Shown piece by piece: positions 40,095 through 61,970 of a DNA stretch of 64,000 bases (position 1 is the first letter of the stretch; each line of letters starts with the position of its first letter). The position numbers and the translations under genes were made by a program. The DNA is from a virus: the IMG/VR virus record IMGVR_UViG_3300021962_000041, positions 50,869 to 114,868 of that record. One strand, written 5' to 3'. The notes beneath the pieces are model-generated. The model saw nothing but the letters and a program-made list of their open reading frames with translations, made no database searches and was not told the origin of the DNA.

Positions 40095-40167
40095 TACCCG
40101 TGGTCGGATTCGAACCGACACTGGAAGGATTTTAAGTCCTCTGTCTCTGCCGTTGGACTACACGGGC
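40095..40167 (-). tRNA. tRNA-Leu (anticodon TAA)
   Basis: A 73-nt cloverleaf: acceptor GCCCGTG/CACGGGT, anticodon loop CTTAAAA giving anticodon TAA, T-arm GTCGG-TTCGAAT-CCGAC and discriminator A. It reads UUA/UUG Leu codons, which are more frequent in AT-rich phage genes than in the host. The variable region is only about five bases, whereas Leu tRNAs normally carry a long variable arm. No CCA is encoded. Confidence 0.85.
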
Positions 40168-40172
40168 TTAGG

Positions 40173-40245
40173 TGCTCCTTGCGTGGATCGAACACGCCTC
40201 AGGCGAATTATGAGTTCGCTGCATTCACCAGATTGCTAAAGGAGC
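40173..40245 (-). tRNA. tRNA-Met (anticodon CAT)
   Basis: A 73-nt cloverleaf: acceptor GCTCCTT/AAGGAGC, anticodon loop CTCATAA, T-arm GCGTG-TTCGATC-CACGC and discriminator A. The lack of three G:C pairs in the anticodon stem argues against an initiator tRNA. It could instead be a lysidine-modified Ile tRNA, which sequence alone cannot decide. Confidence 0.85.
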
Positions 40246-40247
40246 AA

Positions 40248-40320
40248 TAGGAGTGCTGGGAATTGAACCCAGACTACCCCGTTATAAGCAGGGCGCTCTG
40301 ACCGATTAAGCTACACTCCC
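40248..40320 (-). tRNA. tRNA-Ile (anticodon TAT)
   Basis: A 73-nt cloverleaf: acceptor GGGAGTG/CACTCCT with a G:U first pair, anticodon loop CTTATAA giving TAT, T-arm CTGGG-TTCAATT-CCCAG and discriminator A. It decodes AUA. Its 3' end lies two bases from the neighbouring tRNA, and the stop codon of the 40321 gene follows its 5' end at once. Confidence 0.85.
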
Positions 40321-61238: not shown

Positions 61239-61336
61239 CACTTTACTCCAACTAGTTGTGCTAGTTGTGCTTGATGACGACGCTCTTCTTTTTGCTTTTG
61301 TTCTTTAATAAGTTGAAGGAAGTTAAGTTTTTTCAT
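61238..61336 (-). CDS. Very small basic protein
   Basis: A 32-residue protein MKKLNFLQLIKEQKQKEERR..., a charged helix. The ATG at 61336 follows a GGAGG site and overlaps the stop of the upstream gene. Function unknown. Confidence 0.55.
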   Translation of the reverse strand: MKKLNFLQLIKEQKQKEERRHQAQLAQLVGVK

Positions 61337-61491
61337 TGTGCCACCTCCGCATTTCTGCAGGGGCGATATGCTACACCACGATATTTGTTTTGTGGATGAG
61401 CAGGAGCGTGTGTTTGGGTATACCAAGACACATACTCTTTCTTTGCATCTTCGGTGTCATATTGACACCCTCTGTAAACGACTTTAGACAT
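61333..61491 (-). CDS. DUF4278-like protein
   Basis: A 52-residue protein MSKVVYRGCQYDTEDAKKEY... with two YRG(x)xY motifs (YRGCQY at 6-11 and YRGVAY at 38-43), the hallmark of the small cyanobacterial DUF4278 family. AAGGAGAAAACC precedes the ATG. A riboswitch-like box ends 30 bases upstream. Function unknown. Confidence 0.7.
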   Translation of the reverse strand: MSKVVYRGCQYDTEDAKKEYVSWYTQTHAPAHPQNKYRGVAYRPCRNAEVAQ

Positions 61492-61520
61492 TAGGTTTTC
61501 TCCTTAATTTTGAGGCTAAA

Positions 61521-61548
61521 GAGCGTTCCTTCAGTCGGCTTTTGCGTC
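61521..61548 (-). promoter_or_regulatory. Glutamine-riboswitch-like box (3' half, copy 2)
   Basis: Minus-strand GACGCAAAAGCCGACTGAAG followed by GAACGCTC. The CCGACTGAAGGAACGC part is close to the 3' conserved segment of glnA/Downstream-peptide RNAs. It overlaps the last codons of the 61531-61683 ORF and lies in the leader of the DUF4278-like gene. Confidence 0.45.
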
Positions 61549-61683
61549 TATGGGACAAGTTTTTGGAGAGACCTGTTTAATCTCCCAAATTAGATCATTC
61601 TTTGCTTGTTTAGGAATATCAGTCTTTTGGACTCTTCCTACCATCAATTGTGCTTGTAGGCAAGTGAGAATGATTGCTTCCAT
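61531..61683 (-). CDS. Small protein (riboswitch-linked peptide)
   Basis: A 50-residue protein MEAIILTCLQAQLMVGRVQK... with an N-terminal hydrophobic helix and the end CPIDAKAD. The ATG is part of the conserved box CGTTCATCTATGG. I recall short ORFs of this type downstream of glnA-like RNA motifs in marine picocyanobacteria and their phages. Confidence 0.65.
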   Translation of the reverse strand: MEAIILTCLQAQLMVGRVQKTDIPKQAKNDLIWEIKQVSPKTCPIDAKAD

Positions 61684-61721
61684 AGATGAACGTTCCGTTC
61701 CGAGTCGGCTTACTTCCGTCC
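61681..61721 (-). promoter_or_regulatory. Glutamine-riboswitch-like box (copy 1)
   Basis: Minus-strand GGACGGAAGTAAGCCGACT, then CGGAACGGAACG, then TTCATCTATG. GGACGGAAGTAgG and GAAGGAACG are the central and 3' conserved segments of the glnA/Downstream-peptide RNA family (glutamine riboswitches). The 5' segment CGTTCATCC is not next to it but lies 220 bases upstream at 61936-61950, before the 61732-61938 ORF. Confidence 0.55.
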
Positions 61722-61731
61722 TATTTAATTT

Positions 61732-61938
61732 TTAGCACCTTGTAATCACATCCTTTCGGAGTTCTAATAGCAATTGGTCTTCTTTTCTCTGGTGAACAAC
61801 ATCGTCGTTTTTAACGATGTCCATTAGTTCCCACGCTGCGTTACAACTTATTGTGACTGGAAATTCAGTCTTATTAGGTTGTGGTGAAGCAACAGAAAGA
61901 AGTGGAACCCATGCTAAAAGCAAAAGTGCTTTAGTCAT
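61732..61938 (-). CDS. Small secreted protein
   Basis: A 68-residue protein with signal peptide MTKALLLLAWVPLLSVASPQ and a mature helical domain with two cysteines (SCNAAWELM, TRC). Its ATG follows the conserved box AACGTTCATCC and its stop lies 11 bases before the GGACGGAAGT box. It is therefore bracketed by riboswitch-like sequence. Confidence 0.7.
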   Translation of the reverse strand: MTKALLLLAWVPLLSVASPQPNKTEFPVTISCNAAWELMDIVKNDDVVHQRKEDQLLLELRKDVITRC

Positions 61939-61970
61939 AGGATGAACGTTAGGAGGGTATTATACTCCTA
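61936..61970 (-). promoter_or_regulatory. Promoter/operator and 5' riboswitch-like box
   Basis: TATAAT (61959-61964) lies in the loop of a perfect 6-bp inverted repeat TAGGAG/CTCCTA (61950-61955, 61965-61970). AACGTTCATCC (61940-61950) follows and leads straight into the ATG at 61938. The -35 is poor. Confidence 0.5.

Follow-up and report, generated by a model that had tools for sequence, protein, structure and literature searches.

Tandem glnA-type riboswitch aptamers with complete small genes nested in their P2 loops are widely conserved in cyanophages

On the minus strand of the window, by which we mean the whole 64,000-nucleotide stretch of viral DNA that was analysed, positions 61948-61524 hold two units in tandem that are built like type 1 glutamine (glnA, RF01739) aptamers. 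The order on this strand is CGTTCATCC-TATG-ORF1 (61938-61732)-ATAGGACGGAAGTAAGCCGACTCGGAACG, GAA, CGTTCATCTATGG-ORF2 (61683-61531)-CCATAGACGCAAAAGCCGACTGAAGGAACGC, and all the boxes quoted in the first-pass annotation were indeed found there in the order it gave. Unit 1 reads CGUUC-A-UCCUAU[G..ORF1..]AUAGGA-CGGAAGUA-AG-CCGA-CU-CG-GAACG and is followed, after the spacer GAA, by unit 2, which reads CGUUC-A-UCUAUGG[..ORF2..]CCAUAGA-CGCAAA-AG-CCGA-CU-GAAG-GAACG. In both, the parts come in the order P1, A, P2, core, P3, P1', as in the Rfam glutamine riboswitch consensus. Where hairpin P2 would have its loop, each unit carries an entire small ORF, of 68 aa (ORF1) or 50 aa (ORF2), and P2 closes around it with 6 bp in unit 1 (UCCUAU/AUAGGA) and 7 bp in unit 2 (UCUAUGG/CCAUAGA). 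The 5' part is thus split from the rest by a whole ORF, as had been noticed before, with each ORF filling a P2 loop between complementary flanks.

In unit 1, the P1 5' strand CGUUC (61944-61948) was placed by its sequence and by alignment to the RF01739 consensus P1, and its 3' partner GAACG (61696-61700) by sequence. The P2 5' strand UCCUAU (61937-61942), which includes the AU of the ORF1 start codon, pairs with 61724-61719, the 3' strand AUAGGA (61719-61724), an assignment based on sequence and on covariation in 29 relatives. The core CGGAAGUA, a short P3 (AG-CCGA-CU) and CG occupy 61701-61718, according to the RF01739 alignment of compact relatives. In unit 2, both P1 strands, CGUUC (61688-61692) and GAACG (61524-61528), were likewise read from the sequence, while the P2 5' strand UCUAUGG (61680-61686), here with the ORF2 start codon inside it, pairs with 61553-61547, the 3' strand CCAUAGA (61547-61553); sequence, covariation in 73 relatives and the minimum-energy fold all place this helix. 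The core CGCAAA with P3 (AG-CCGA-CU) and GAAG (61529-61546) was positioned by the RF01739 alignment of the compact relative L020, and ORF2 ends within it as ...DAKAD*. The first-pass annotation had also taken the 3' part of unit 1 to double as the 5' part of unit 2, which proved mistaken: GGAACG and CGTTCATC are separate elements with a 3-nt spacer between them. They are complementary to each other, and when the window RNA is folded to minimum energy, the junction GAACG-GAA-CGUUC (61688-61700) pairs into a local hairpin whose formation would be at the expense of both P1 helices.

Just upstream of unit 1 (61950-61970) lies a TATAAT (61964-61959) with a flanking inverted repeat, UAGGAG/CUCCUA. 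A TATAAT-like element is found at this place in the arrays of other viruses as well, with inverted-repeat arms that vary by virus (TGTGTTA, TAGAGG, TAGGGG, GGTATG), and stems of at least 6 bp surround it in 71% of arrays versus 10% of shuffles. It may be a promoter with a cruciform, or a 5' RNA hairpin. On the other side of the array, a predicted hairpin, CUCUUUA/UAAGGAG (61500-61523, minimum-energy fold), occupies the Shine-Dalgarno site of the gene that follows (the downstream gene, 61333-61491, minus strand), which encodes a 52-aa, DUF4278-like YRG...YRG small protein. Farther away in the window, three adjacent tRNA genes occupy 40095-40320 on the minus strand.

Rfam searches of the window, at gathering and at relaxed thresholds, gave no glutamine riboswitch match, because each P2 loop carries a gene. 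By the terms of the first-pass annotation, the proposal would fall if covariance-model matches and conservation of the boxes in relatives were both lacking; the former are missing from the window, while the latter turned out to be very strong. A search of phage records gave 23 matches, and the tandem array was present in 14 of the 14 cyanophage records opened; with pattern scans of viral contigs added, the collection grew to at least 193 virus sequences (the junction spacer is usually 3 nt, although the main scan pattern demanded this length). The comparison with related cyanophages that had been suggested therefore bore the proposal out. The lack of an Rfam match would also fit chance resemblances of the boxes around ordinary small genes, and this recurrence, together with the covariation described below, refutes that reading, whose probability is practically nil.

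The collection includes arrays with and without genes. Among the matches listed, the states of unit 1/unit 2 were compact/ORF in 98, ORF/ORF in 45, compact/compact in 26 and ORF/compact in 10, the rest being truncated arrays; these frequencies describe samples in which related sequences are not independent. A search with the protein of an ORF1 relative alone found 58 phage records, and all seven of the ORF1 homologues newly opened lie in P2 loops (Syn9 gp196, S-TIM5, S-CAM3, S-8S29, Sf-CH11, S-IOM18, P-RSM4). In the Syn9 group (L461-L467), both cores (CGCAAGTAAGTCGCGGAACG, CGCAAACGACTGAAGGAACG) look shorter by about 3 nt than those of the window group, with the ORF2 frame kept. A manA RNA (RF01745, 184 bits) was seen near the array in P-SSM4 and in a marine virus (L001 1019-1204 and L006 1912-2109). 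The P-SSM4 copy overlaps PSSM4_169.1, an annotated protein gene, and the overlap casts doubt on this gene or on its extent.

The compact relatives connect the array to a known family. With a gathering cut-off of 35 bits for RF01739, the compact unit 1 of DSL-LC02 (35.6 bits) and of P-SSM2 (35.1 bits) and the compact unit 2 of L020 (40.3 bits) score above it, whereas other compact relatives fall below (25.8-33.9 bits); one compact phage unit, L051, matched RF01704 (glutamine-II) with 33.2 bits against a cut-off of 33. In S-CREM1, whose record names a glnA riboswitch, the array is also tandem and both units are compact; the available text of the paper on this phage reports a single glnA match and describes no nested ORFs, which this element indeed lacks (PMC9964418). 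Conversely, a model (R1) built from ORF-excised unit 1 sequences only recovered 24 of 25 canonical aptamers at host or viral loci outside the training set. Tandem occurrence, as in the window, has been reported for glnA RNAs (PMC2864571).

Set against the type 1 riboswitch (RF01739), both units share P1 (CGUUC/GAACG, whose invariance among relatives is partly by construction, the P1 boxes having been used to collect loci), a P2 that opens UC../..GA directly after the A following P1, a core of the form CG[CG]AA.., the order of the parts and, through the YRG small protein, a position upstream of a nitrogen-related or DUF4278 gene. They differ in the complete genes in the P2 loops, the shortened P3 of 2 bp and the altered junction of unit 1: unit 1 has the consensus core CGGAAGUA but CG in place of GAAG, and unit 2 has GAAG but the core CGCAAA. 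With the type 2 riboswitch (Downstream-peptide, RF01704), the units have in common the 5' and 3' boxes and the type of downstream YRG small protein; the host form carries a CAGGCC..GGACCUG pairing around GGAACG, and this CAGG..CCUG pairing around the 3' box is absent from the window and present in the host-phylum loci L447, L452, L455 and L457. Because of these departures from the consensus, and because a number of compact relatives stay under the cut-off, the ligand or affinity of the units may have changed. Taken to its end, this would mean that they now recognise another ligand or have ceased to be metabolite sensors, with P1 and P2 only hiding start codons or coupling translation. The missing GAAG segment of unit 1, the reduced P3, compact-form scores near or under the Rfam cut-off and the in-frame shortening of the Syn9 group core all fit such drift, which we nevertheless regard as unlikely: the core positions free of any search-pattern constraint are conserved in 73 and 29 distinct ORF-bearing sequences, models from ORF-bearing sequences recover canonical aptamers, and the downstream gene is of the type controlled by glutamine riboswitches.

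P2 persists around the genes. Across the ORF, 91% of P2 cells are paired in unit 2 and 89% in unit 1. Cells changed on both sides of the helix number 113 versus 51 in shuffles for unit 2 and 13 versus 5.4 for unit 1, and in either unit none of 500 shuffles reached the observed count. When 3' strands were swapped between viruses, the mean helix fell from 5.84 bp to 4.08 +/- 0.17 bp in unit 2 (maximum of 5000 swaps, 4.80) and from 5.33 bp to 4.05 +/- 0.28 bp in unit 1 (maximum 5.19), and sliding the partner reduced whole-structure pairing from approximately 95% to 31-49%. Within the window loops, interior 8-mers pair by at least 5 bp with the P2 5' strand at only 0.4% of positions. The untranslated bases before the ATG predict the residue that precedes the terminal DAKAD (mutual information 1.60 versus 0.87 +/- 0.09). 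By these comparative measures, P2 pairing is maintained by compensatory changes across the ORF. Together with the compact relatives recognised as RF01739, these changes support the first of two alternatives offered in the first-pass annotation, a riboswitch with ORFs lodged in its loop. The P2 of unit 2 also forms around ORF2 when the window RNA is folded to minimum energy. In this fold, the ORF2 start codon is paired in P2 while the junction hairpin replaces both P1 helices, so that energies alone give no two-state switch.

Genes and plain hairpins trade places in this loop. L018 and L121 are 99.9% identical across 700 nt downstream, and unit 1 contains ORF1 in one and a plain hairpin in the other; overall, of 36 pairs that are at least 90% identical, 12 differ in ORF/hairpin state, and different ORF families occupy the same loop slot. 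Such exchange between near-identical viruses, and the use of one slot by different families, could also be expected if the boxes were exchange sites for gene cassettes and the helix a by-product of inverted cassette ends. A recombination site would, however, keep its sequence and not its pairing, whereas the P2 sequences differ among cassettes yet stay complementary; the boxes, moreover, match a known aptamer, and we consider this explanation highly improbable.

Both ORFs are genuine genes. Pairwise medians of dN/dS are 0.22-0.29 for ORF1 and 0.22-0.37 for ORF2, and the other frames are closed, so that on sequence grounds both are under purifying selection. ORF1 encodes a hydrophobic N terminus followed by a two-helix segment with Cys32 and Cys68 (AlphaFold helices 32-44 and 50-67, mean pLDDT 67.6), and ORF2 has Cys8 and Cys43 with predicted helices 8-20 and 25-37 (pLDDT 87.6). 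The two proteins are thus of one type, short, with a hydrophobic start and a two-helix segment between two cysteines, which may form a disulfide. A profile comparison of the two families aligned the cysteines (P 1.2e-4, probability 55%), suggesting common descent. Pfam holds no family for either protein, PHROGs gave families of unknown function only, and a fold search with ORF2 returned nothing significant. A host origin was considered and rejected, cyanobacterial genomes giving matches in 0 of 292 for ORF1 and a single weak one in 292 for ORF2.

The genes are fitted closely to the aptamers, with start codons in or beside the P2 5' strand and the ORF2 stop in the 3' part of the aptamer. Among the matches listed, all 58 ORF1 relatives start with ATG 4-7 nt past CGTTCA and all 148 ORF2 relatives with ATG 3-6 nt past it; the ORF2 stop falls at core position +13 in 141 of the 148, the core being read as ..D-A-K-A-D-stop, and ORF1 ends within its core as ..G-R-K-stop in 27 of the 58. 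Protein genes that sit in a peripheral loop of a structured RNA, which still folds around them, are familiar from group I and group II introns. The window units resemble these introns in this respect and differ in that they are not self-splicing, encode no endonuclease and belong to a metabolite-sensor type of RNA. By analogy, the ORFs could be passengers of an insertion-tolerant loop that are translated without control by glutamine, the aptamers acting on the downstream DUF4278-like gene only. In canonical relatives the length of the P2 loop is free to vary, being at most 40 nt in all of 121 viral glutamine aptamers and reaching 114 nt in 122 aptamers from GTDB genomes (ORF-bearing loops measure 137-225 nt); ORF and plain hairpin interchange with the downstream gene unchanged, and at least 26 arrays have no ORF at all. 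Against mere passengers speak the start codon, always 3-7 nt from CGTTCA and usually in P2, and the single fixed core site of the ORF2 stop, both as counted in the matches listed. Compact genome packing could also explain these fixed sites. We put the odds of the passenger explanation clearly short of even.

The downstream gene points towards nitrogen control. Its 52-aa product matches Pfam PF14105 with an E value of 5.6e-5 (23.9 bits, below the curated cut-off of 25.3) and phrog_5049 with 3.6e-11, and its YRG motifs are invariant in 18 relatives. Among the matches listed, the first gene after the array that has a Shine-Dalgarno site encodes a small YRG-motif protein in 176 of 184 cases, and in seven genomes of the host phylum glutamine-II aptamers immediately precede small YRG..YRG genes. 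Glutamine riboswitches of types 1 and 2 switch genes on upon glutamine binding, DUF4278 genes are their typical targets, and DUF4278 forms the N-terminal portion of IF17, an inactivating factor of glutamine synthetase (PMC6316151). An identity with PirA was rejected: PirA is reported to be absent from marine picocyanobacteria, and the PirA paper, in its available text, draws no link to DUF4278. The Shine-Dalgarno hairpin is strong in the 29 linkers of the CTC type, and the site is paired in the window; other linkers did no better than spacer shuffles, and a general Shine-Dalgarno-sequestering expression platform was therefore discarded. As a separate observation, several recurring unnamed small-protein families lie 3' of compact type 1 aptamers in viral contigs (L320-L439), e.g. 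MTMWTRYCR.., MTKYQ..NPFYP and ..ARKEVDINGGGTSGYIVKHGPNKDK...

We conclude that the array is real and widely conserved, and that it represents a variant form of a known riboswitch whose aptamers enclose genes. Our best explanation, with a probability of roughly 0.7, is that a T4-like cyanophage carries tandem type 1 glnA-type aptamers whose P2 apical loops are genes, and that the glutamine-bound state conceals the nested starts while favouring expression of the downstream gene. Here we infer both the reciprocal control and the binding of glutamine by this RNA, the latter because known family members bind it. Folding of P1 and P2 would hide the nested start codons, and ribosomes on a nested ORF would melt P2 and, for ORF2, also the core, so that an aptamer could not stay folded while its nested ORF is translated, nor the ORF be translated from the folded form. 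The nested proteins would then be favoured when glutamine is low, and when it is high the downstream DUF4278-like protein, of the kind that such riboswitches activate in cyanobacteria. Conservation of the array in at least 193 virus sequences suggests that small-protein synthesis and sensor folding are mutually exclusive. The full scheme, with the regulated genes inside the aptamer, glutamine shutting P1/P2 over their starts while promoting the downstream gene, and nested ribosomes keeping the sensor open, such that one ligand serves two sets of small proteins, is tentative, and we put its chances a little below even.

In the literature searched, we found no report of a glutamine riboswitch with nested ORFs. 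Riboswitches are usually described as untranslated leaders, whereas here coding genes lie within the domain that does the sensing, and bases that belong to the aptamer helix also act as start codon, stop codon and C-terminal codons. Such elements escape standard covariance-model scans, and riboswitches in common cyanophages (P-SSM4, P-HM2, Syn9, S-TIM5) have consequently been left unannotated. The phages combine the element with a protein homologous to the glutamine-controlled DUF4278 small proteins of the host, which points to phage control of host nitrogen assimilation.
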